64,000 nt of DNA from Kribbella pratensis (GTDB lineage Bacteria; Actinomycetota; Actinomycetes; Propionibacteriales; Kribbellaceae), in the NCBI RefSeq assembly GCF_004366075.1, contig NZ_SODU01000001.1, positions 1,178,001 through 1,242,000 on the forward strand, read 5' to 3'. How positions within the stretch are numbered: position 1 is the stretch's first letter; the number at the start of each line of letters is the position of its first letter. A program made the translations under genes and the position numbers. Of the stretch, positions 2,458-38,270 are shown piece by piece. Under the pieces are notes generated by a model. The model was not told the DNA's origin. It saw only the letters and a list, made by a program, of their open reading frames with translations, and did not search any database.

Positions 2458-4044
2458 TCAAGAACCCAAGGGGGTGTAGGGCCCGACGGTCACGTCGCCG
2501 CTGGGCTGGGCGGTGACCGCCTGCAGACCGACCGGAAGGCCCTTCTGGTAGGTGATCAGGGTGACCTCACCCGGTTTGCGCAGTGTGTAGCCCAGCGCGA
2601 AGGCGTACGCCGCTCCCCCGGTCGTCCCGTTCGTGTACGTCGTGACCGCGCGGTTGTCGACCACCCGGTGTTCGGGCCCGACCTGGCGATGCAGATGACC
2701 GGACAACAGCAACGTCGCGCACCCTCGCGCCGCGGTGTCGGCGAACGACGACGGGTCGTGCACCACCATCGTCGAGATCCGCTTGTCCTCCGGCTGGTCG
2801 CAGGCGATGTCCGCGAGCCGCTGCGACTGGTGCTCGATGGTCTCGTCGCCCGGGCTGTCCGCGCTGCCCAGTCCGGTGCGCGTCGGGTCGCTGTCGCCGA
2901 GGAACCGGATCCCCTCGACCTCGACCGGCTTGCTGTCGAGCACGGTGAACCCGGCCTTGCGCATGGACCCCTCGATGTGGCCGCCGGCGTCGTGGTTGCC
3001 GGCCACCGCGACCACCTTGAAGTCCTTGAAGTGCTGCCGCAGCGAGTTGATGCTGAATGCTTCCCAGCTCTGCCCGGACGAGGTGTCGTCACCCGCGTCG
3101 ATGAGCAGCTTTGCGCCGCCCGCTTTGGCCACCGCGGCCGCGAAGCCGTCGATCCCGATGTTGTCGTGCCGGTCCGAGACCAGCAGGGCGACCTTCTCGT
3201 TCTCGTTCGGCTGGTGCAGTTGCGGTGCGACGTCGGCGACCCGGTCCTTGAGCCTGCCGTACAGCTCGGTGGACTTGCGGTACGTCTCGACCAGCGTGCG
3301 GATCACGCCGACCCCGCCGGTGGTGGAGAACCCGGACGCGACCTCGACCGTCTTCAGCCGGTCGTCGAACGACATCTCCGGCAGCAGCTTGAACAACGGC
3401 TGCCACTGCGTCGGCGGTACGTCGGGCTGCCGCATCCGTCCCGGTCCGTAGATCGACGCGATCGTGATCAGCATCGCGACCAGGACGACGATCATCCGGT
3501 GCTCGGTCCGGCGTTCGTGCCGATGCACCAGGTGCCACAGTTCGCTCCGGCGCCGTGCCCCGAGAGCCGTCCACAGGGTCGCGACCACCACCACGACGAG
3601 CAGGCCGGACCCGGCCCCGGCGACCGCGTTGTCGACCGCCATCTCCTGGACGACCTGCTGGATCCGCCCGATCTCACCGTCGGGCTGGGAGGCGATCAGG
3701 GTGTCGCGGGTGAGCAGCTCGGTGAGGTTGCCGGCGTCGGTCTCCTGGACGTCGACGTTGACGCCGATGCCGCCGGGCGCGTTCGTCGGGATCCGCAACC
3801 GCGGCAGTACTGCGCCGAGGTCGACGGTCGCGTGCCCGTCGAACGTCGGCGACACCGTCGCCGCGTGGGCGCCGATCGTGACCCGCTCGGAGTCGTTCAC
3901 GAACCCGAACAGTCCCACGAGGACCGAGGTCAGGACGAAGAGCAGGCTCAACCCGGCCCACGGCACAACCGCCCGCAGCCGCTCCTTCGTCACCAGCCGT
4001 ACCACCACACTCACCAACCTACCGAGAAGCCCCACCTCGAGCAC
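2458..4044 (-). CDS. Membrane-anchored metallophosphoesterase
   Basis: A calcineurin-like phosphoesterase with membrane segments in its N-terminal half. From GTG 4044 it is 528 residues. A longer frame to 4185 would run into gltD and adds a low-complexity Arg/Pro stretch, so it was not used. There is one hydrophobic segment near the N-terminus (PWAGLSLLFVLTSVLVGLFG) and two more before the catalytic domain. The C-terminal domain carries the metal-site series: SDRHDN, DAGDD, AGNHD and SGHLH. The natural substrate is unknown; extracytoplasmic nucleotide or phospholipid esters are possible. It lies between gltD and pyk on the same strand. Confidence 0.8.
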   Translation of the reverse strand: MLEVGLLGRLVSVVVRLVTKERLRAVVPWAGLSLLFVLTSVLVGLFGFVNDSERVTIGAHAATVSPTFDGHATVDLGAVLPRLRIPTNAPGGIGVNVDVQETDAGNLTELLTRDTLIASQPDGEIGRIQQVVQEMAVDNAVAGAGSGLLVVVVVATLWTALGARRRSELWHLVHRHERRTEHRMIVVLVAMLITIASIYGPGRMRQPDVPPTQWQPLFKLLPEMSFDDRLKTVEVASGFSTTGGVGVIRTLVETYRKSTELYGRLKDRVADVAPQLHQPNENEKVALLVSDRHDNIGIDGFAAAVAKAGGAKLLIDAGDDTSSGQSWEAFSINSLRQHFKDFKVVAVAGNHDAGGHIEGSMRKAGFTVLDSKPVEVEGIRFLGDSDPTRTGLGSADSPGDETIEHQSQRLADIACDQPEDKRISTMVVHDPSSFADTAARGCATLLLSGHLHRQVGPEHRVVDNRAVTTYTNGTTGGAAYAFALGYTLRKPGEVTLITYQKGLPVGLQAVTAQPSGDVTVGPYTPLGS

Positions 4045-4099
4045 CGACCACCGTTTCCCTGCCGGGTTTGGTTGCCTGGGGCCCAAGGTGGGGCTGCTG

Positions 4100-5566
4100 T
4101 CAGACTGCGAGGGGGCGGGCGGTGGGCGGGATCGGTGTCGGGAGCGTCGACGATCCGGTGAGGTGCGCGTCGACGCCGCCGGCACAGGAACGGCCTTCGG
4201 CGATGGCCCATACGATCAGCGACTGGCCGCGGCCGGCGTCACCGCAGGCGAAGACACCCTCGACCGAGGTCTGGTACCGGTTGTCCCGCTTCACGTTGCC
4301 GCGCTCGTCGAGCTCGACCCCGAGCTGCTCGAGGAAACCCTCGCGCTCCGGGCCGACGAAGCCCATCGCCAGCAGCACGAGCTGCGCCGGGATGGTCCGC
4401 TCGGAGCCCTCGACCGGGGTGAACTTCCCGTCCTTGAACTCCACCTCGACCAGGTTCAGCCCCGAGACGTTGCCGTCGGCATCGGCCTCGAAGTTCACCG
4501 TGGAGACGGCGTACACCCGGTCGCCGCCCTCCTCGTGCGCGGAGGCGACCCGGTAGATCATCGGGTACGTCGGCCACGGCTGGTGGCCCGGGCGGTCGTC
4601 GCCGGGTCGCGGCATGATCTCCAGCTGGGTCACCGTCCGCGCGCCCTGCCGGTGCGCCGTACCGAGACAGTCGGCGCCGGTGTCGCCGCCGCCGATGATC
4701 ACCACGTCCTTGCCGGTCGCGACGATCTGGTTCTCGACGGTCTGCCCGAGCGCGGCCCGGTTGGACTGCGGCAGGTACTCCATCGCCTGGTGGATGCCGC
4801 CGTACTCACGGCCCGGCACCGGCAGGTCACGGGCCGCCGTGGCACCGGTCGCGATCACCACCGCGTCGTACCGCTGCTTGAGCTGGGTCCCCGTGACGTC
4901 CACGCCGACGTTGACGCCGGAGCGGAAGACCGTGCCCTCCTCCTTCATCTGCTGGATGCGCCGGTCGACCTGGATCTTTTCCATCTTGAACTCGGGAATG
5001 CCGTACCGCAGCAGGCCGCCCGGGGCGTCGGCGCGCTCGTACACCGCGACCGTGTGCCCCGCGCGGGTCAGCTGCTGCGCGGCGGCCAGTCCGGCGGGAC
5101 CGGACCCGACGACCGCGATCGTCTTGCCGGTCAGCCACTCCGGCGGCTGCGGGTTGACGTCACCGGTCTCCCAGGCCTTGTCGATGATCGCGACCTCGAC
5201 GTTCTTGATCGTCACCGGGTCCTGGTTGATGCCCAGGACGCAGGACGTCTCGCACGGCGCCGGGCAGAGCCGCCCGGTGAACTCCGGGAAGTTGTTGGTC
5301 GCGTGCAACCGCTCGATCGCACTCGACCAGTCGTCCCGCCAGACCAGGTCGTTCCACTCCGGGATCAGGTTTCCCAGCGGACAGCCGCTGTGGCAGAACG
5401 GGATACCGCAGTCCATGCAGCGGCCGGCCTGCTTGGTGATGATCGGCAGCAGCGCCTTGCCGGGACCGCCGGGGTAGACCTCTTTCCAGTCCTTGACCCG
5501 CTCCTCGACCGGCCGCCGGTCGGCGACCTCCCGCGGGGTGGTCAGGAATCCCTTGGGGTCAGCCAT
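4100..5566 (-). CDS. gltD: Glutamate synthase (NADPH), small subunit
   Basis: The beta subunit of glutamate synthase passes electrons from NADPH through FAD to the large subunit. It has 488 residues. The N-terminal cysteine clusters (CMDCGIPFCHSGCPLGN) bind Fe-S clusters. A Rossmann motif GSGPAGLAAAQ binds FAD, and VVIIGGGDTGADC binds NADPH. The ATG overlaps the gltB stop by one base (TGATG), which indicates translational coupling. This start gives the family-typical opening [15 protein letters not shown] much longer upstream frame through gltB in a different reading phase is spurious. Confidence 0.96.
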   Translation of the reverse strand: MADPKGFLTTPREVADRRPVEERVKDWKEVYPGGPGKALLPIITKQAGRCMDCGIPFCHSGCPLGNLIPEWNDLVWRDDWSSAIERLHATNNFPEFTGRLCPAPCETSCVLGINQDPVTIKNVEVAIIDKAWETGDVNPQPPEWLTGKTIAVVGSGPAGLAAAQQLTRAGHTVAVYERADAPGGLLRYGIPEFKMEKIQVDRRIQQMKEEGTVFRSGVNVGVDVTGTQLKQRYDAVVIATGATAARDLPVPGREYGGIHQAMEYLPQSNRAALGQTVENQIVATGKDVVIIGGGDTGADCLGTAHRQGARTVTQLEIMPRPGDDRPGHQPWPTYPMIYRVASAHEEGGDRVYAVSTVNFEADADGNVSGLNLVEVEFKDGKFTPVEGSERTIPAQLVLLAMGFVGPEREGFLEQLGVELDERGNVKRDNRYQTSVEGVFACGDAGRGQSLIVWAIAEGRSCAGGVDAHLTGSSTLPTPIPPTARPLAV

Positions 5567-8500
5567 CAGATGGCCTCCATCATCGCTCGCGTGGTGGCAT
5601 CCTCGTCCAGCCCGTCGCGCTCGGCGGCCGCCTTGGCCGCCAGCACCCGGGCGTAGTCGCGGGGCATCACCGTGGTGAACCTGGCAGCAGCGGCCGGCCA
5701 GTCGGCGAGCAGCTTGGCCGCCCGCTCCGAACCGGTCTCCTCGAAGTGCCTGCGGACCAGGTCGTGCAGCAGTTCGGACTCGTCCGTGGTGACCGGGTGC
5801 AGATCCACCAGCTCCGGGTTCACCAGGGTGTGGTCCAGGTCGAGCACGTGGGCCACGCCGCCCGACATGCCCGCCGCGAAGTTCCGGCCGACGGCGCCGA
5901 GTACGACGACGCGCCCACCGGTCATGTACTCGCACGCGTGGTCGCCGACCGACTCGACGATCGCGGTCGCGCCGGAGTTCCGGACGCAGAACCGCTGGCC
6001 GGCGCCGCCGCTGATGAACAGTTCGCCGGACGTCGCGCCGTACGCGATCACGTTGCCGGCGATGATCTGGTCGGCAGCGTCGAACCGGGCGCGCCGGTCG
6101 GGCCGGATGACGACCCGGCCGCCGGACAGTCCCTTGCCGACGTAGTCGTTGGCGTCGCCCTCGAGGCGCAGGGTGACACCGCGCGGGACGAAGGCGGCGA
6201 ACGAGTTGCCGGCCGACCCGGTGAAGGTGAGGTCGATGGTGCCGTCGGCCAGTCCGGCCGCGCGGTACCGCTTGGTGATCTCGTGGCCGAGCATCGTGCC
6301 GACGGTCCGGTTGACGTTGCGGATCGCGAGCTGTGCCCGGACCGGTTCGCCGTTGTCCAGCGCGGGCTGGCAGATCCGGATCAGCTCGTTGTCGAGGGCC
6401 TTGTCCAGACCGTGGTTCTGCTCGATGGTCTGGTGCAGCGACGCGCCCTCGGGCAGCGCCGGCACGTGCAGGATCGGCGACAGGTCGAGCCCGTCGGCCT
6501 TCCAGTGGTCGACGGCGCGCTCGATGTCGAGTACTTCGGCGTGCCCGATCGCCTCGTCCAGCGTCCGGAACCCGAGCTCCGCTAGGTACTCGCGGACCTC
6601 CTCGGCGATGAACTCGAAGAAGTTCACGACGAACTCGGGCTTGCCGCTGAACCGCTCCCGCAGCACCGGGTTCTGGGTCGCGACCCCTACCGGACAGGTG
6701 TCCAGGTGGCAGACCCGCATCATGATGCAGCCCGACACCACCAGCGGAGCGGTCGCGAAACCGTACTCCTCCGCGCCGAGCAGCGCCGCGACGATCACGT
6801 CCCGACCGGTCTTCAACTGACCGTCGGTCTGTACGACGATTCGGTCCCGCAAACCGTTCAGCAGCAGGGTTTGCTGCGTCTCGGCCAGACCCAGCTCCCA
6901 CGGCCCGCCCGCGTGCTTCAGCGAGGTCAGCGGCGCCGCACCGGTACCGCCGTCGTGGCCGGAGATCAGTACGACGTCCGCGTGCGCCTTGGAGACACCG
7001 GCCGCGATCGTGCCGACGCCGACCTCGGAGACCAGCTTCACGTGGATCCGCGCCTGTGGGTTCGCGTTCTTCAGGTCGTGGATCAGCTGCGCCAGGTCCT
7101 CGATCGAGTAGATGTCGTGGTGCGGCGGCGGCGAGATCAGGCCGACGCCCGGCGTCGAGTGCCGGGTGCTGGCGACCCACGGGTACACCTTCGGGCCGGG
7201 CAGCTGCCCGCCCTCACCGGGCTTCGCGCCCTGCGCCATCTTGATCTGGATGTCGTCGGAGTTCGTCAGGTACTCCGCGGTGACGCCGAAGCGGCCGGAC
7301 GCGACCTGCTTGATCGAGCTCCGCCGGGCCGGGTCGTACAACCGGTCGGCGTCCTCGCCGCCCTCACCGGTGTTCGACTTGCCGCCGAGCTGGTTCATCG
7401 CGATCGCCAGCGTGGTGTGCGCCTCGGCGCTGATCGAGCCGTAGCTCATCGCACCGGTGGAGAACCGCTTGACGATCGCACTGACCGGCTCGACCTCGTC
7501 GATCGGGATCGGCTGCCGGTCACTCTTGAACCCGAACAGGCCGCGCAGCGTCATCAGCCGCTCGGACTGCTCGTCGACCCGCGACGTGTACTGCTTGAAG
7601 ATGTCGTACCGCCCGGTCCGGGTGCTGTGCTGCAGCCGGAAGACCGTCTCCGGGTCGAACAGGTGCGGCTCGCCCTCGCGGCGCCACTGGTACTCGCCGC
7701 CGATCTCGAGCTTGCGGTGCGCCGGCAGGATGCCGTCGGCCGGGTACGCGCGCAGGTGCCGGCGGCGTACCTCCTCGGCGATCGTGTCCAGCCCGACGCC
7801 GCCGATCCTGGACGACGTACCGGTGAAGTAGATGTCGACCAGGAACGGGGACAGCCCGTTCGCCTCGAAGATCTGGGCGCCGGTGTACGACGCGACCGTC
7901 GAGACACCCATCTTCGACATGACCTTGAGCACGCCCTTGCCGAGCGACTTCACGACGTTGCGGATCGCCTGCTCCGGCTCGATACCGGGCAGGTACGTGC
8001 CCTGGCGGCACAGGTCCTCGACGGACTCGAGCGCCAGGTACGGGTTGATCGCGGCCGCGCCGTACCCCATCAGGAGCGCGACGTGGTGCACCTCGCGGAC
8101 GTCACCGGCCTCGACGACGAGACCGACCTGGGTGCGGGTCTTCTTCCTCACCAGGTGGTGATGAACCGCCGCGGTCAGCAGCAGCGACGGGACCGGCGCG
8201 CTGTCGGCGTTCGAGTGCCGGTCGGACAGCACCAGGATGCGGGCGCCGTCACGGATCGCGGCGTCGGCCTCGGCGCAGATCTCGTCGAGGCGTGTGCGGA
8301 GCGCCTCACCCCCGCCTTCGACGTCGTACACGCCGCGCAGGACCGTGGTGGCCAGGCCGGGCATGTCGCCGTCGAGGTTGATGTGCCGGAGCTTGGCCAG
8401 CTCGTCGTTGGTGATCACGGGGAACGGGATCACCACCTGCCGGCAGGAGGCCGGGCTCGGGTTGAGCAGGTTGGACTCCGGGCCGAGGCTGGACGACAGC

Positions 8501-22542: not shown

Positions 22543-23649
22543 ATGACTAGTGAGGCGCGGATCGAGGCGCTGCTGGCGGAGCATCCGGTGATCGACGGGC
22601 ACAACGACCTGCCGATCGCGTTCTACGAGCTGTGCGGGTACGACCTGGACGCGTACGACCTGGCCGGTTCGGTGCCGCAACTCCACACGGACCTGCCGCG
22701 GCTGCGCGCGGGCCACGTGGGTGCGCAGTTCTGGTCCCTGTGGGTGCCGCAGGACGAGCACGCGGTACGGCGTACGTTCGAACAACTCGACTTCGTCCGG
22801 CGACTCGTCGAGCGGTTCCCGTCGGACCTCCAACTGGCGGATACCGCCGACGACGTGGACGCGGCGATCAAGGCCGGCCGGGTCGCGTCGCTGATGGGGA
22901 TGGAGGGCGGCCATTCGATCGGTGAGTCGCTCGGCGTGCTGCGGGTGATGCGCGCGCTCGGCGTGCGGTACATGACTCTGACCCACAACAACAACGTGTC
23001 CTGGGCGGACTCGGCGACCGACGAACCGGTGCTCGGCGGGCTGAACGAGTTCGGCGAGGACGTCGTCCGGGAGATGAACCGGATCGGCATGCTGGTCGAC
23101 CTGTCGCACGTCTCCGCGGACACCATGCGGCACGCGCTGCGGGTGACGAGTGCGCCGGTGATCTTCAGCCACTCGTCTGCGCGCGCGGTCTGCGACGTAC
23201 CGCGGAACGCGCCGGACCACGTCCTCGAGACGCTGACCGGCAACGACGGCGTCTGCATGGTGACGTTCGTGCCGTACTTCACCTCCCAGGCGTACGTCGA
23301 CTGGCTCGACGGGATGCACGCACTGGCAAAGGAGCACGGCCTCGAGGCACCTGAGCATCGCGAGAAGGTCGAGGCGATGTACGGCGTGCCGCGGCCGGAG
23401 GTCACGCTCGCGGACGTGGTCGAGCATGTCGAACACGCCCGCGAGGTCGCGGGGGTCGACCACATCGGTCTCGGCGGGGACTACGACGGCTGCCCCGAGT
23501 TCCCGGTCGAGCTGCCGGACGTGGCGTCGTACCCGGTGCTGTTCAGCGCGCTGGCCGACCGCGGCTGGAGCGACGAGGAGCTCGGCAAACTTGCCGGAGG
23601 CAACATCCTGCGCGTGCTCCGGGCCGCGGACGACGCAGCTACCGCCTAG
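22543..23649 (+). CDS. Membrane-dipeptidase-type peptidase (M19)
   Basis: A zinc dipeptidase of the renal-dipeptidase family, 368 residues from ATG 22543 with GAGGA upstream. Metal-site motifs: VIDGHNDLP (His and Asp), GMEGGHSI (bridging Glu), LVDLSHVS and FSHSSAR (His), and [13 protein letters not shown] near the C-terminus. No signal peptide, so it is probably cytoplasmic and active on dipeptides, D-amino-acid-containing peptides or similar amides. Its TAG stop shares the tetranucleotide CTAG with the convergent GNAT gene. Confidence 0.93.
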
Positions 23650-24512
23650 GCGTCCCGGTACTGGGAGCGGATCTCGTCCTGGGGTTCGAGCCCGGCGGCC
23701 TGGTACGTCGCGACCGCGCCGACGTTCGTTGCCGGGGTGACCGTGTAGACGCTGGACGCCCCCATCTCCTGGAGCGTGCGGGCGCAACCGAGGACCATCG
23801 CGGTGCCGTACCCGCGGCCGCGGTGCAGGCGGTGGACGCCCATCGGCTCGATGTAGCCGGGGCGTCCCTCGCCGGCCGACCAGACGGTGGCGGCGGCAAC
23901 GGATTCGCCGAGCTCGTTGCGGAGCACGAGATCGCGTGCGTCGGCGTACGGCAGGCCGTCGGCCATCGCGAACCAGCGGTCGTCGGTGAACGTCGACCCG
24001 TCGAACGACGCCCGCTGTACGCCGGTCCGCTCGTGAGCCTCCTCCGGGCCGATCACGTCGATCCGTACCCCCGGATCCGGCACCGGGTCGGTCAGGTCGC
24101 GCCACACCGGGACCCACGGCACGTCCGCATTCCAGCCGTCCTTGAACAGCAGGTCCTGGACGAGCGCTCCCATCGGCGTCTCGACGTACACCTTGCCCTC
24201 GATCAGCACACCCCGCGCGGGCTCCGACACGTCCTCGGCGATCCGGTGCGCGAGCTCCTCGTCACGCTGGAGGTCCGGCTCGATCGCCATCCGCAGCCAG
24301 TCCGGCTCGTCGAGCATCCCGATCGCGACGATCTCCCCGCCCCGCCGCCAGATCCGGGTCGCCGCCGCGGTCCGCTCCTCGCCGAACCGCCAGAACCACC
24401 CGAGATCCCCCGGATGCAACTGCGACGCCACCCCTTCCCGCTGCCACTCCCGCAGCACCCCCACGACATCCCCCAACTCCCCGGCCCCCGCCGTAACCAT
24501 CTCAATACCCAT
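23646..24512 (-). CDS. GNAT-family N-acetyltransferase
   Basis: A 288-residue protein. The C-terminal GNAT domain has the acetyl-CoA loop [17 protein letters not shown] followed by a helix and [15 protein letters not shown], the usual end of the fold. The N-terminal half looks like a degenerate second GNAT-like domain. ATG 24512 was chosen; ATG 24500 is an alternative. The substrate is unknown. Its stop overlaps the dipeptidase stop by four bases. Its upstream region is unusually C-rich on the + strand. Confidence 0.82.
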
Positions 24513-24704
24513 CCCCCGATCACACACCATCGGCCCCACCCCCCGCACCCCACTTCCAGCCCCGGCACCCGACTTTGAGGCCCCACCAACCACCCCACCG
24601 CCACCTTGAGCCTCCACCAACCAAAATCCGCCGCGAGATTTGGGTGGCCCGTGCTCAAAGACGTTTTCCACAGGTCGGTGGGTAACGGGGTGCGGGGGTG
24701 ATGT

Positions 24705-24725
24705 GGGTGGAGGGAGGGTGGTGGG
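24705..24725 (+). promoter_or_regulatory. G-quadruplex-type motif overlapping the ribosome site
   Basis: Four GGG runs (24705-24707, 24712-24714, 24716-24718, 24723-24725) with loops of four, one and four bases end exactly at the ATG at 24726. They form the only purine-rich ribosome site for that gene. A folded quadruplex in the mRNA would block initiation. The pattern is clear; the function is inferred. Confidence 0.5.
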
Positions 24726-25733
24726 ATGGATCGGCTTGATCATGGGGTGCGGGAGCGGCTGGCTGTGGTTGCGCGGACTCCGCAGCGGCGCGCCGCCCTG
24801 CGTGAGCTCGGGCTCGGTGACGCCGACCTCCGGAGGCTGGTACGGCGTGGTGCTCTGCGACACCACCACGGCCATTACGTCGACGGGCGTCTCGATGAGC
24901 AACTCGCGGCGATCGCCTGCGCACATGCGGCGTACCCGGGCTCTGTCGTGAGTCACTTCAGCGCCGCCCGGCTGGCCGACATCCCGGTGTGGACCGACCG
25001 CGGCCGCCCGAGTGGCGTCCCGATCGATGCCGCGTGGCTGACCCGTCCGCCGGAAGCCCCGCGCAATCAGCGACGCGCGGACATCGTCGTACGGCGTGCC
25101 GGCCTGACGGTGGCTGACCTGTCACATCACTTGTGGCTACCGGTCACCTGCAGCGCCCGGACCGTGCTCGACCTCGCCCGGGAACTGCCGCTGCGCGAGT
25201 CGATCGTCACGGTCGACGCCGCGTTGCGTAGCGGTACGGCGATGGCGGACCTGCACGCAATGGCCGAACGCCAGGAGCATTGGCCCGGCATCCGGCGAGC
25301 ACTGTCGGCCATCGCGTTCGGTGACCCCGCGTCGGAGTCCCCTTTGGAGTCGATCGCCCGGGCCAGGTTCGCGGCCGCCGGTCTGCCTTCTCCCGTTCTC
25401 CAAGTGCAGTTCTTCGACGGCTTCGACTGGATGCTCGAGCGGGTTGACTTCTGGTGGCCGTGGTTTCGTACGGTCGGGGAGGCGGACGGGCTTGCGAAGT
25501 ACGAAGCAAGCAGCCCGGAGGAGCGTCGGCGTCTGCTGCGCCGGAGCCACCGGCGTGACCAGCGGCTCAGTGACCGTGGCGTCGAACTCGTTCACTTCGG
25601 TTGGGAGGACGTGGTCGATCCGAGGTCGGATCTGATCGATCGCTTCCGAGCGGCCTTTGCGCGCGGCGAGGCGCGTCACACCGAGCCACCCCACTGGCGT
25701 ACCGCTCCGCCGCCGCACGTCGATGCCGCGTGA
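24726..25733 (+). CDS. AbiEi-antitoxin/DUF559-like protein
   Basis: A 335-residue protein of a large actinobacterial family. The N-terminus resembles a winged-helix AbiEi-type domain (LGLGDADLRRLVRRGALRHHHGHYV). The C-terminal region resembles a PD-(D/E)XK or very-short-patch-repair-like nuclease fold: SESPLESIARARF, then ERVDFWWPW, then GEADGLAKY, which could supply the Glu, Asp and Glu-x-Lys set. Members are often annotated as hypothetical or as type IV antitoxin-like. No AbiEii-type toxin lies next to it. The gene is flanked by a 14-bp inverted repeat and its ribosome site lies in a G-quadruplex-type motif. Confidence 0.65.
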   Translation: MDRLDHGVRERLAVVARTPQRRAALRELGLGDADLRRLVRRGALRHHHGHYVDGRLDEQLAAIACAHAAYPGSVVSHFSAARLADIPVWTDRGRPSGVPIDAAWLTRPPEAPRNQRRADIVVRRAGLTVADLSHHLWLPVTCSARTVLDLARELPLRESIVTVDAALRSGTAMADLHAMAERQEHWPGIRRALSAIAFGDPASESPLESIARARFAAAGLPSPVLQVQFFDGFDWMLERVDFWWPWFRTVGEADGLAKYEASSPEERRRLLRRSHRRDQRLSDRGVELVHFGWEDVVDPRSDLIDRFRAAFARGEARHTEPPHWRTAPPPHVDAA

Positions 25734-25856
25734 CCTTGAGCACGGGCCAGCCGTTTTCGAGGCGCGTCCGTGGTTGGTGGGTGCTCGAGGAGTGTTTGAG
25801 GTTTCGGTGGTCGGGCACGGGGCGTGGGCTAGTGACAATCGACGGATGGAGTGGCT

Positions 25857-26171
25857 GTGCTGACCCTGACTGAGAACGCGACGCTGGTGATCAAGAGCAT
25901 CACCGGGGTCGAGGGCGCGCCGGACGGGGCCGGGGTGCGGATCTCGCAGGAGAACCCGGCGGATCCGGCGCTCGCGGTGACCACGACCGAGGCTCCGCAA
26001 CCGGGTGACCAGGTCGTCGAGGACGCGGGTGCCCGGGTCTTCCTCGAGCAGAACGCCGCGAACGCGCTCGACGACAAGATCCTGGACGCGGCGGTCGACG
26101 ACAAGGGCGGTGTCGAGTTCCTGCTGGTACCGCAGCCGGGCCCGAGCAACGGCGCGGCCCCGACCCCCTGA
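25857..26171 (+). CDS. HesB/IscA-fold small protein without cluster cysteines
   Basis: A 104-residue protein starting LTLTENATLVIKSITG, the typical opening of the actinobacterial HesB-like (ErpA-fold) family. GTG 25857 has GGA six bases upstream; GTG 25851 is an alternative. IscA/ErpA proteins bind Fe-S clusters through three cysteines, but this sequence contains none, so a cluster-carrier role is doubtful. These cysteine-free relatives are sometimes annotated as Fe-S biogenesis or adhesin proteins; the function is unknown. The convergent ABC gene lies beyond a terminator-rich spacer. Confidence 0.75.
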   Translation: MLTLTENATLVIKSITGVEGAPDGAGVRISQENPADPALAVTTTEAPQPGDQVVEDAGARVFLEQNAANALDDKILDAAVDDKGGVEFLLVPQPGPSNGAAPTP

Positions 26172-26181
26172 GCCAACCACG

Positions 26182-26203
26182 TTTGCCTGGTCGGCCAGGC
26201 AAA
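26182..26203. terminator. Hairpin terminator, first unit
   Basis: A 9-bp stem (26182-26190 with 26195-26203) and four-base loop eleven bases after the HesB-like stop. The 20-base core recurs at 26269-26288 with one mismatch. Confidence 0.7.
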
Positions 26204-26249
26204 TGAGGGGTTCTACACCCTGAAAGTGGGTGACAAACCCCGGACTTGG

Positions 26250-26282
26250 CTGGCTGACCAGGCAAATTGCCTGGTCAGCCAG
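26250..26282. terminator. 33-bp palindromic terminator, second unit
   Basis: An almost perfect palindrome, 16 bp per arm (26250-26265 with 26267-26282) around one central base, six bases from the stop of the convergent ABC gene. It works in either direction. The very short loop also allows cruciform extrusion in DNA. Confidence 0.7.
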
Positions 26283-26287
26283 GCAAA

Positions 26288-28084
26288 TTAGAGGGCGCTG
26301 CGCTGGGCGATCCAGCTGTCGTGCAGGCGGGTGTAGACCCCGCCTGCGCCGACGAGTTCGGCGTGCGGGCCGCGTTCCACGATCTTGCCCTCGTCGAAGA
26401 CCAGGACCTCGTCGGCTGCCTCGGCCGTCGACAGGCGGTGCGCGATGGTGACCGACGTACGGCCGGACATCAAACGCTCCAGTGCCGCGTTCACCCGCAC
26501 CTCGGTGCCGGGGTCGACCGCTGAGGTCGCCTCGTCGAGCACGAGCAGGTCCGGGTCGGCGATGTTCGCGCGGACCAGGGCCACCAACTGCCGCTCCCCG
26601 GCCGACAGCGACTCGCCGCGCTGACCGACCGGCGACTGCAGCCCGTCCGGCAGCGACTCCAGCCAGTCCGTCAGTCCGAGCGACTCGAACGCCGTGACCA
26701 GCTCCGCGTCCGTCACCTCGGGCCGTCCGAACCGCACGTTCTCGGCCAGCGACGCGTCGAACAGGTACCCGTCCTGCGGCACCATCACGACCCGCTCCCG
26801 CAGCGACTCGAAGGAGATCTCGCGGGCGTCCACCCCGTCCAGCCGCACCGCCCCGGACGTCGGATCCATCAACCGGGTCAGCAACTTCGCGAACGTCGTC
26901 TTGCCGGACCCGGTCTCCCCGACCACCGCGACCCGCCGATGCGGTTCGATCCGTACGTCGACGTCACGCAGCACCAGTTCGCCTTCCGGATAAGCGAAAT
27001 CGACGTCGTCGAACTCGACCGTGATCGGCCCGCGCGCCTGCTTCACGCCGTCCTCGCCCGGGTCCGCGACATCGGCCGGCGTCGCGATCACACCGAGCAC
27101 CCGGCGCCAGCCGGCGAACGCACTCTGCGCATCCGTCAGCACCTGCGTGGCGATCTGCACCGGGTCCGAGAACAGGGCCACCAGGAACATGAACGCGAGC
27201 AGCTCGCCGAGCGTCGCCTGCTTGTCGATGCCGAGCAGTACGCCGACCGTCAGTACGCCGGCGTTCGCGAGGCCGGCGGCCAGACCGCCGATCGAGAACG
27301 TCAGACCGGTGAGCGCCTGCGCCTTCGTCGCCGTACGGCGGTAGTCCTCGATCGACGCGTCGATCCGGTCCTGCGTGCGCTGCTCGATGGCGTACGAGCG
27401 GACGACCTGCGCGCCGACCACCGGCTCGGCGATCGCGGACAGCATCTCGCCGACCTTCGCCCGCACCACGCCGTACGCCTTCGACATCGCGCGCTGCAGA
27501 TACTTCAGGCTGCCGAACAGCGGAATGAAGCAGGCCAGCACGACCAGCGCGAGCTGCCACGAGTAGAAGAACATCACGATCGTCGCGAGCAGCATCTGCC
27601 CGAGGCTGACCAGGAAGATGAACCCGCCGAACTGCAGGAACTGCGACACCGTGTCCACGTCCGACGTGACCCGGCTGACCAGCGCCCCGCGCCGCTCGGT
27701 GCTCTGGGTCAGCACCGGCAGGTCGTGCACGTGCCGGAACGCCTTGATCCGCATCGTCGCCAGCCCGTGCTCCGAGTTGACCGCGAGCCGCACGGTCGTC
27801 AGGTACGACGCTCCCGCGGTGAGGATCACGCCCACCGCGCAGATCAGGCACATCCAGGCGACGTACGACGTATCCGGACCGCCCGGGCCGGACAGGCCCT
27901 TGTCGATGGTCTGCTGCACGGCGATCGGTACGACGATCCGCCCGGCCGTCATCGTCAGCGCGAGGAGCCCGGTCAGCCACCACCCGCGCGCGAGCTCGGG
28001 CGAGACCTTCAGACCGTCCTTGAGGGTCTGCAGTCCGCCCGCGTTGTCGCCGTGGTCAAGCCGCGAAGCTTCCGCCGCGCTCAC
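26288..28084 (-). CDS. ABC exporter half-transporter, catalytic-competent subunit
   Basis: A 598-residue type IV (exporter) ABC protein: six membrane helices in about residues 35-310, then the ATPase domain. Walker A is GETGSGKTT (about 389-397) and the Q-loop is near 437. The signature is non-canonical (LSAGE, about 493). Walker B ends in Asp517-Glu518 (LLVLDEATS), keeping the catalytic glutamate, and the switch histidine is His549 (IAHRLST). Its start overlaps the upstream partner by four bases, so the two should form a heterodimer. The substrate is unknown; multidrug or lipid export is typical. Confidence 0.93.
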   Translation of the reverse strand: MSAAEASRLDHGDNAGGLQTLKDGLKVSPELARGWWLTGLLALTMTAGRIVVPIAVQQTIDKGLSGPGGPDTSYVAWMCLICAVGVILTAGASYLTTVRLAVNSEHGLATMRIKAFRHVHDLPVLTQSTERRGALVSRVTSDVDTVSQFLQFGGFIFLVSLGQMLLATIVMFFYSWQLALVVLACFIPLFGSLKYLQRAMSKAYGVVRAKVGEMLSAIAEPVVGAQVVRSYAIEQRTQDRIDASIEDYRRTATKAQALTGLTFSIGGLAAGLANAGVLTVGVLLGIDKQATLGELLAFMFLVALFSDPVQIATQVLTDAQSAFAGWRRVLGVIATPADVADPGEDGVKQARGPITVEFDDVDFAYPEGELVLRDVDVRIEPHRRVAVVGETGSGKTTFAKLLTRLMDPTSGAVRLDGVDAREISFESLRERVVMVPQDGYLFDASLAENVRFGRPEVTDAELVTAFESLGLTDWLESLPDGLQSPVGQRGESLSAGERQLVALVRANIADPDLLVLDEATSAVDPGTEVRVNAALERLMSGRTSVTIAHRLSTAEAADEVLVFDEGKIVERGPHAELVGAGGVYTRLHDSWIAQRSAL

Positions 28085-37265: not shown

Positions 37266-37285
37266 TGCCTCTTTAATGCCTTGGA

Positions 37286-37331
37286 CAGTACGGCGGTCGT
37301 TCATCACCATGTGGGAATGACCGCCGTACTG
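37286..37331. promoter_or_regulatory. 13-bp inverted repeat over a start codon
   Basis: cagtacggcggtc (37286-37298) and its exact reverse complement (37319-37331) flank a 20-base loop. The loop holds the GGGA ribosome site and two bases of the ATG of the first double-GNAT gene. The structure could sequester the start in mRNA, terminate the upstream gene, or be a protein-binding dyad. Confidence 0.6.
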
Positions 37332-38270
37332 CCCAGCACCTACACCGTCCGGCCCCCGTCGAAGGAGGACGCGCAAGCGGTCCTCGACCTTGTCGCCGCC
37401 TACAACACCCCGGTGATCGGCTTCGCCGACTACACCCTCGAGGATGCGGAGGACCAGCTCACCGAGCCCGGCTTCGACCCGGCGACCGACGGCTGGCTCG
37501 TGTTCGACGACGGCCGGCTGGTCGGGTACGGCTCGGTCTTCGGCAAGGGCGATCATCGCCAGCTCGACCTCGATGTCGTCACCACCGACCCCGTCGTGGA
37601 GCGTTTTCTGCTCGACCGGGTCGAGCGTCGCGCAGCCGAGCTCGCCGCGGAGTACGGGCACCCGGCCGCGCTGGTCGACATCGTCAACTACCAGGCCGAC
37701 AAGGCCCGCGAGGAACGGCTGGCCGGCTACGGATTCGAACGCGGCACGATCTTCCACCGGATGCGGATCAACCACGACGGGGCGGTGCCGGCGCCCGCGG
37801 TTCCGGACGGAGTCACGGTACGGCGGGGCGCGCCGGACGAGGCGAGCCGCCGGGCGGCGCACGACGTACTGAATGCCAGCTTCGCTGGGCAGTTCGGGTT
37901 CTCGCCGCGCTCGTACGAGGAATGGCACGCTTCGCTGGAGAACTTCTCGGGGTTCGACTGGTCCCAGCAGACGCTGCTCGAACTGGACGGCGAGGTGGTC
38001 GCGATGCGGCTGTGCAACGACCAGTTCGTCGAGGACGAGAACTGCGGCTACATCGGACGGCTCGGCGTACTCGAGAAGGCTCGCGGGAAAGGCCTCGCGA
38101 AGTTCCTGCTCCGCGACCAGTTCGCGCTCGACGCGGCCGCCGGCCGGACCGGCACGATCCTGCACGTCGACACCAACAACCCGACGCCGGCACTCGGCGT
38201 GTACCTGTCGGTCGGTATGCAGGCCGTCCTCGTGATGGAGGTCTGGCGACGCGAGGTGCCCGCCGCATGA
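37317..38270 (+). CDS. Double-domain GNAT acetyltransferase, copy 1
   Basis: A 317-residue protein with two GNAT-like domains. The N-terminal one begins YTVRPPSKEDAQAV. The C-terminal one begins VTVRRGAPDEASRRAAHDVL and has the acetyl-CoA region GYIGRLGVLEKARGKGLAKFLL, followed by NPTPALGVYLSVGM. Architecture resembles mycothiol synthase (MshD), but the substrate is unknown. ATG 37317 lies inside a 13-bp inverted-repeat structure. It overlaps copy 2 by four bases (ATGA). Confidence 0.85.
   Translation: MTAVLPSTYTVRPPSKEDAQAVLDLVAAYNTPVIGFADYTLEDAEDQLTEPGFDPATDGWLVFDDGRLVGYGSVFGKGDHRQLDLDVVTTDPVVERFLLDRVERRAAELAAEYGHPAALVDIVNYQADKAREERLAGYGFERGTIFHRMRINHDGAVPAPAVPDGVTVRRGAPDEASRRAAHDVLNASFAGQFGFSPRSYEEWHASLENFSGFDWSQQTLLELDGEVVAMRLCNDQFVEDENCGYIGRLGVLEKARGKGLAKFLLRDQFALDAAAGRTGTILHVDTNNPTPALGVYLSVGMQAVLVMEVWRREVPAA

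Follow-up and report, generated by a model that had tools for sequence, protein, structure and literature searches.

In the present study, the 335-aa AbiEi/DUF559-like gene at positions 24726-25733 (forward strand) of the window, by which we mean the whole 64,000-nucleotide stretch analysed here from the genome of the soil bacterium Kribbella pratensis, was found to lie between two imperfect palindromes of 59 nt that belong to a family dispersed through this genome and those of its relatives. The anatomy of this arrangement, which consists of a gene, the palindromes that flank it and their dispersed copies, is well supported by comparisons among genomes. We consider it somewhat more probable than otherwise (approximately 0.57) that the arrangement represents a REPtron-like system with an AbiEi/DUF559-like nuclease, the putative spreader of the hairpins, in the position otherwise held by the HUH transposase. 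In the text below, genomes and loci carry working numbers (G and L), and G000 is the genome that contains the window.

Inverted Repeats at the Window Gene

The earlier note on this DNA drew attention to a perfect 14-mer and its inverse just outside the gene. The 14-mer TGGCCCGTGCTCAA is present at 24645-24658 on the forward strand and at 25736-25749 on the reverse strand, with an exact match at 14 of 14 positions on opposite strands around the gene, but the pair is a fragment: on either side of the gene there is an imperfect palindrome of 59 nt, and the 14-mer copy forms one of its arms. The upstream palindrome occupies 24603-24661 (59.3 bits with the covariance model R1 described below; fold z -2.7) and the downstream palindrome, in the opposite orientation, 25733-25791 (60.5 bits; fold z -1.9); both are decayed. 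An extra outer half-site, a direct repeat at 24572-24592 on the forward strand, is located 31 nt upstream of the left arm of the upstream palindrome and reflects the phasing discussed below.

Regarding a chance origin of the pair, a genome-wide search, as the earlier note had proposed for the 14-mer, gave two exact occurrences of its 13-nt core GGCCCGTGCTCAA in 8.39 Mb, both flanking the window gene, against approximately 0.7 expected from base composition and one occurrence of the reversed control pattern, and of 5000 control pairs of window stretches, 5 had an exact inverted match of 14 nt. The genome count and the control pairs together rule out chance. Since a model-free hairpin score misses both window palindromes, they were recognised through their relatives: the nearest paralogue in the same genome (68% identical, G000:C1:965010-966002) has near-perfect hairpins on both sides, and the repeats at the window gene belong, in decayed form, to this hairpin family.

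Known RNA families were ruled out at this locus, as no Rfam match in 24400-26300 exceeded its gathering score; the five weak ones obtained all fell on a separate hairpin at 26181-26300. Nested near-perfect palindromes, TTTGCCTGGTCGGCCAGGCAAA and TTGCCTGGTCAGCCAGGCAA, are found at 26182-26287 between the gene for a 106-aa protein and a convergent ABC transporter gene, and are not matched by R1. The other two hairpins in the 64-kb window with a model-free score of at least 13 are at 37282-37335 and 851-882. A weak solo palindrome matched by R1 is located at 4034-4089 on the reverse strand (E=3.1e-6 for the loci searched, with a second value of E=4.2e-5).

The Encoded Protein and Its Relatives

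The gene had previously been read as an AbiEi-like winged helix joined to a nuclease-like C-terminus, and both halves of this reading persist at the level of profile matches and conserved residues. The AbiEi-like part covers approximately residues 23-182 (24792-25271, forward strand) and is matched by PADLOC AbiEi profiles (E=2.4e-4 and 3.4e-4), which also match 30 of 31 aligned relatives. The nuclease-like part, with estimated bounds of approximately residues 200-320 (25323-25685, forward strand), was delimited from the alignment and from the single, weak match in a PDB profile search, to the endonuclease-like protein 3hrl (E=0.057). It contains E208, D241, E252 and K258. E208, D241, E252 and R277 are conserved in 31/31 aligned relatives, and D254 and K258 in 29/31; E208, D241, E252, D254 and K258 are candidate catalytic residues. 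This half is presumably of the Vsr-like or PD-(D/E)XK type.

The window protein itself has no Pfam match at E<=1 and no significant NCBIfam match. Among the 31 aligned relatives, DUF559 matches three and REase_MTES_1575 two at E<=0.01, AbiEi_4 matches ten, and PF01797, the RAYT transposase domain, is absent from the families matched. An AlphaFold2 prediction from five input sequences had a mean pLDDT of 39.

Named matches of the window protein were all from Kribbella, the top one at 92% protein identity. A relative at E<=1e-20 is present in 33 of 38 Kribbella genomes, and one at E<=1e-15 in 144 of 293 genomes of the order; relatives at E<=1e-80, which define the subfamily in the present study, occur in 23 of the 38 Kribbella genomes. 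The four neighbour genes scanned encode an M19 peptidase, a GNAT protein, an ABC transporter and the 106-aa protein, which belongs to no family; neither an AbiEii partner nor a defence-system gene was found among them. The phage records and viral contigs searched contained no relatives, and plasmids gave two weak matches, both from Tsukamurella, on which grounds carriage by phages or plasmids was ruled out.

Palindrome Structure Around Subfamily Genes

Forty-three palindromes were extracted around subfamily genes, and the 35 of exactly 59 nt were aligned; one duplicate was removed, as were seven palindromes of other lengths (three of 58 nt and four of 60 nt). At its foot (ACYTTGNG / CNCAARG) the palindrome hardly varies, in contrast to its inner stem. 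Pairing holds for 86.8% of cells across the 21-nt arms and drops to 33-42% if one arm is displaced against the other, and 15 of the 21 stem pairs have changed on both sides with pairing kept. The alignment demonstrates, at the level of sequence, that the stems are preserved by compensatory changes. Neither GTAG nor CTAC was present in any of the 35 aligned Kribbella palindromes. Three near-perfect copies, folded as single-stranded DNA, had z values of -8 to -12 against shuffles.

According to the earlier note, its reading would fall if flanking repeats were absent around all other family members. They are present: of 24 fetched Kribbella subfamily loci, 22 have palindromes on both sides according to the covariance model R1, for the training of which many of these flanks were used, the exceptions being L034, at a contig edge, and L044 in G031, which has a different palindrome on both sides. 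With the model-free score, which was applied to the flanks of 35 of 36 gene loci, 11 of 23 subfamily genes have a hairpin scoring at least 13 on each side, whereas a single stretch of background DNA reached this score in 1 of 288 cases; among 12 paralogues that are more distant, such hairpins are found on both sides in 1/12 and on at least one side in 6/12. Two distant paralogues, L049 (G035) and L047 (G015), are each bordered by a matched hairpin pair of their own, of the types GGGTTGCCC and CCCTCA, respectively. Directly downstream of another distant paralogue, L272 (G028), there is an R1-like palindrome at 2581-2650, and a weaker one is at 1527-1556.

The two flanks of one gene resemble each other more than expected, with a mean of 14.7 differences against 22.8 after shuffling and none of 10,000 shuffles as close; the upstream and downstream palindromes are mutually closest in just 8 of the 19 genes (from 27 gene copies) used for this comparison. 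The inverted arrangement of the flanking palindromes was established at the window gene. In most subfamily genes, the upstream palindrome precedes the start codon by approximately 60-200 nt. Several Kribbella loci also have the extra outer half-site, 30-31 nt out, and the half-sites are helically phased, at 30-31 nt in Kribbella and approximately 20 nt in another genus of the order (see below).

Dispersal and Turnover of the Palindromes

The genome that contains the window has 42 R1 sites, four of which flank its two subfamily genes while 38 are solo. Eighteen of the solo sites were examined, and none was inside a predicted gene; with crude gene calling, 5/18 overlapped the end of a predicted ORF by 36-66 nt, and the neighbouring genes were codirectional at eight sites, convergent at five, divergent at four and unassigned at one. 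Locally, palindromes may also be clustered, as in L162 (G013), in which four R1 palindromes occupy 440 nt (894-1331) in a BIME-like manner.

If the palindromes were transcription terminators or insulators, strong intergenic stems would be expected, and such stems are what is seen. This explanation is very improbable considering that 8 of the 18 solo sites lie between codirectional and four between divergent genes, and that the presence and stem of a site vary between species while its neighbours remain constant. A role as terminators was ruled out on the basis of the four sites between divergent genes.

R1 matches were found in 34 of 38 Kribbella genomes. With both strands counted and at most 145 candidates scored per genome, the median number was 88 in genomes with a subfamily gene (n=23) and 20 in those without (n=15), a difference with p=0.0097, or p=0.0003 when G001 and G004 were removed, both values being uncorrected for relatedness. 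Several genomes in which no subfamily gene was found nevertheless have many matches, namely, G001 and G004 (at least 145 each), G009 (93), G015 (76) and G022 (60). Three palindromes of G022 (at L101, L234 and L245) share a CCACCGCGC inner stem, and no subfamily gene was found in that genome.

The turnover of solo sites was followed at three sites from G000:C4:372000-386000. The first is filled in five and empty in six of 11 aligned genomes, with L188 (G005) left out, and in G020 it is filled by a different stem type. The second is present in four and absent in two of six genomes, and the absences are probably one shared deletion. The third is filled in all five aligned genomes, and in G029 and G020 the inner stem differs between conserved flanks, which indicates that the palindrome was rewritten in place. 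Both of these genomes hold more than one palindrome type. Between G000 and G025, four alignable sites of the eight queried are shared and have paired changes inside their stems. Across the aligned genomes, solo copies have evidently been gained or lost, and swapped in place, between species. Fresh insertion with target duplication was rejected as a description of the sites; no duplication was recognised, and the four alignable G000 sites are shared with G025.

These data also bear on the view that the protein is a regulator, in which the palindromes would serve as dispersed operators for the AbiEi-like half, which would also autoregulate its own gene from the flanks, the nuclease-like half would be secondary, and the palindromes would duplicate by ordinary means and be kept for regulating their neighbours. 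Helically phased half-sites fit duplex binding, the upstream palindrome is suitably placed ahead of the start codon in most subfamily genes, and AbiEi profiles match the protein. We consider this view unlikely all the same: a palindrome occurs downstream of the gene just as regularly as upstream, convergent genes enclose 5 of the 18 solo sites, species differ in the presence of sites and in their stems, and the candidate catalytic residues are conserved.

Loci of the Gene

The window gene occupies what we call locus A, the interval between the GNAT gene on its left (23646-24533, reverse strand, PF00583) and the gene for the 106-aa protein on its right (25851-26171, forward strand), the latter being found in 38/38 genomes, including those in which the AbiEi/DUF559-like gene is missing. 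Locus A was fetched in 30 of the 38 genomes and found but left out in the other eight. The gene or its remains are present in 18 of the 30, eight are empty, two have a longer spacer without the gene, and two stop at a contig edge. In the eight empty genomes, the neighbours are separated by 95-131 bp, within which there are no R1 matches. A comparison by eye of empty and filled loci, the flanks of which have diverged, revealed no recognisable target-site duplication. The draft contigs L063 (G001) and L081 (G004) break off at locus A, such that the absence of the gene from these two genomes is uncertain; contig ends at this position are as expected if palindromes disrupt assembly.

In G023, the locus A gene is 58% identical to that of G000 whereas the gene for the 106-aa protein and the ABC transporter gene are 97% identical, and the palindromes are of the TTTGTGCAC type, which differs from that of G000; the gene and its palindromes were thus replaced together. 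The second copy in G000 occupies locus B, which is common to six compared genomes (G000, G013, G023, G025, G029 and G032). At this locus in G025 (L022), the gene copy has lost an internal part and the palindromes at 4851-4909 and 5845-5903 are identical at 59/59 positions, which suggests conversion between the two flanking palindromes.

The earlier note considered the gene and its repeats compatible with a small mobilisable cassette of the defence type. Such a gene would be mobile together with the inverted repeats at its termini and would act against phages. Inverted repeats are present at both ends, locus A is empty in some relatives and filled in others, and the gene and repeats were jointly replaced in G023. 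The empty sites that the note proposed to compare exist, and no target duplication was recognised by eye between their diverged flanks. Furthermore, the genome that contains the window has two subfamily copies, both intergenic and each at a locus common to several species, instead of copies at many places; there is no AbiEii and no defence gene among the four neighbours, and no relative in the phage records and viral contigs searched. Numerous scattered copies exist of the palindrome and not of the gene. A mobile defence cassette is accordingly improbable.

Cognate Palindrome Types

The palindrome type that flanks the gene in G031 had 60 pattern matches in that genome compared with 2-8 in seven others, and reversed controls gave 0-5; R1 had no match in G031 at 1e-5. 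In the other genus of the order, a GCTTCGCTACC/GGTAGCGAAGC repeat flanks the gene in L251 and L253, and in both genomes the corresponding hairpin was found at four places, including the flank of the gene itself, whereas six other genomes, of which two belong to the same genus, had none. Among seven loci inspected outside Kribbella, four had matched repeats on both sides and three did not. In the other genus, the half-sites form arrays with a period of approximately 20 nt that converge on a centre, and GTAG, by which classical REPs are tagged, is part of the half-site. The two other-genus genomes follow the same plan in unrelated letters. The sequences show that the dispersed palindrome in G031 and in these two genomes is the type that flanks the genome's own gene.

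The cognate rule is not strict, because G020 and G029 carry mixed types, and one palindrome for one gene as a rule is further weakened by the palindrome-rich genomes without a gene and by the G022 stem. The same facts are the main attraction of the view that another enzyme or host recombination moves the palindromes, with the nuclease gene as a frequent neighbour or cargo located between two of them. Hitch-hiking of this type is, however, difficult to reconcile with the flanking of 22/24 subfamily copies at two different loci, with the fit between palindrome type and gene in G031 and the two other-genus genomes, or with the near absence of the RAYT domain from Kribbella, and we rate it as unlikely, below a regulatory role and above a mobile cassette.

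Comparison With Known Systems

A search for PF01797 was positive in 1 of 38 Kribbella genomes, with the E. coli control positive; together with the absence of GTAG from the 35 aligned palindromes, this rules out a classical RAYT/REP system in Kribbella. The resemblance to REPtrons concerns the arrangement. In the papers compared, RAYT genes are flanked by two inverted REPs (PMC2817692), are single-copy and vertically inherited, with REPINs more numerous in the presence of the gene (PMC8049555; also PMC8266576), REPtrons do not move as a unit while REPs are likely mobilised (PMC6006769), and some palindromes apparently have no dedicated enzyme (PMC3733652). The likenesses to the systems in these papers (PMC2817692, PMC3733652, PMC8049555, PMC6006769, PMC8266576) are a gene between two inverted palindromes, the intergenic dispersal of cognate palindromes, their clusters, a small number of gene copies at stable loci, and a higher mean copy number where the gene is present. 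The differences are that the window protein has no Y1/HUH domain and resembles AbiEi plus a DUF559-type nuclease, that the palindromes are 59 nt compared with the 20-40 bp given for REPs, and that the GTAG foot is absent (0/35). The system would thus work like a REPtron without being a member of that class, as its predicted enzyme differs.

Other known systems share single features. The AbiEi-like N-terminal half recalls the AbiE type IV toxin-antitoxin systems, from which the missing AbiEii among the four neighbours, the fused nuclease-like half and the dispersed palindromes set it apart. The conserved E..D..ExDGxxK residues recall DUF559, REase_MTES_1575 and Vsr-like endonucleases, whereas the window protein has no Pfam match at E<=1. 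TIRtrons/TIRYTs and MITEs, as described in PMC3733652, likewise have inverted repeats of a gene that are also present as dispersed copies; the enzyme is a different one here, each repeat is a palindrome, and no target duplication was recognised. A terminal-inverted-repeat transposon would not be expected to have just two subfamily copies in its own genome at loci shared across species. A description of such a nuclease-palindrome system was not found in the open-access literature searched, for which some queries covered the best 10-20 of 619-2,538 matches.

Proposed Mechanism and Significance

The REPtron-like reading is supported by the palindromes at 22/24 subfamily loci, the compensatory stems, the dispersal, turnover and cognate types of the palindromes, their greater number where the gene is present, the joint replacement in G023, and the occurrence of PF01797 in 1/38 genomes. 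Arguing against it are the palindrome-rich genomes without a gene, the orphan stem of G022 and the mixed types, flanks that are mutually closest in 8/19 genes, the distant paralogues (1/12), the decayed state of the window palindromes, the three of seven other-genus loci without a shared repeat, the GTAG in the other-genus half-site, and the mean pLDDT of 39.

In the mechanism that we propose for the REPtron-like system, the AbiEi-like half would recognise the cognate palindrome, either in duplex DNA, through the phased half-sites, or after extrusion of a hairpin, and the PD-(D/E)XK-type half would nick it; repair from another copy would then rewrite the palindrome in place or establish a copy in a new intergenic position. 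For the most part, the gene would be inherited at fixed loci, and it would sometimes be replaced jointly with its palindromes, and its decay may leave orphan palindromes. We also advance, tentatively and with less than even confidence, the broader proposal of a categorically new repeat-spreading enzyme, in which a restriction-type PD-(D/E)XK nuclease fused to an AbiEi-like half for DNA recognition nicks the palindromes of its own family and drives both their copying and their conversion in place. Unrelated enzymes would then have given rise to REP-like systems on at least two occasions, with palindrome codes specific to lineages across this actinobacterial order.

In the papers compared, REP systems rest on one enzyme superfamily (HUH Y1). 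If a second, unrelated enzyme with this genome architecture is indeed involved, the combination of a nuclease and a palindrome population would be a recurrent solution, and the unsolved copying step would gain a second, independent test. The large class of AbiEi/DUF559-like genes that lack an explanation would also be given a role, and the system may help to show how such repeats spread.
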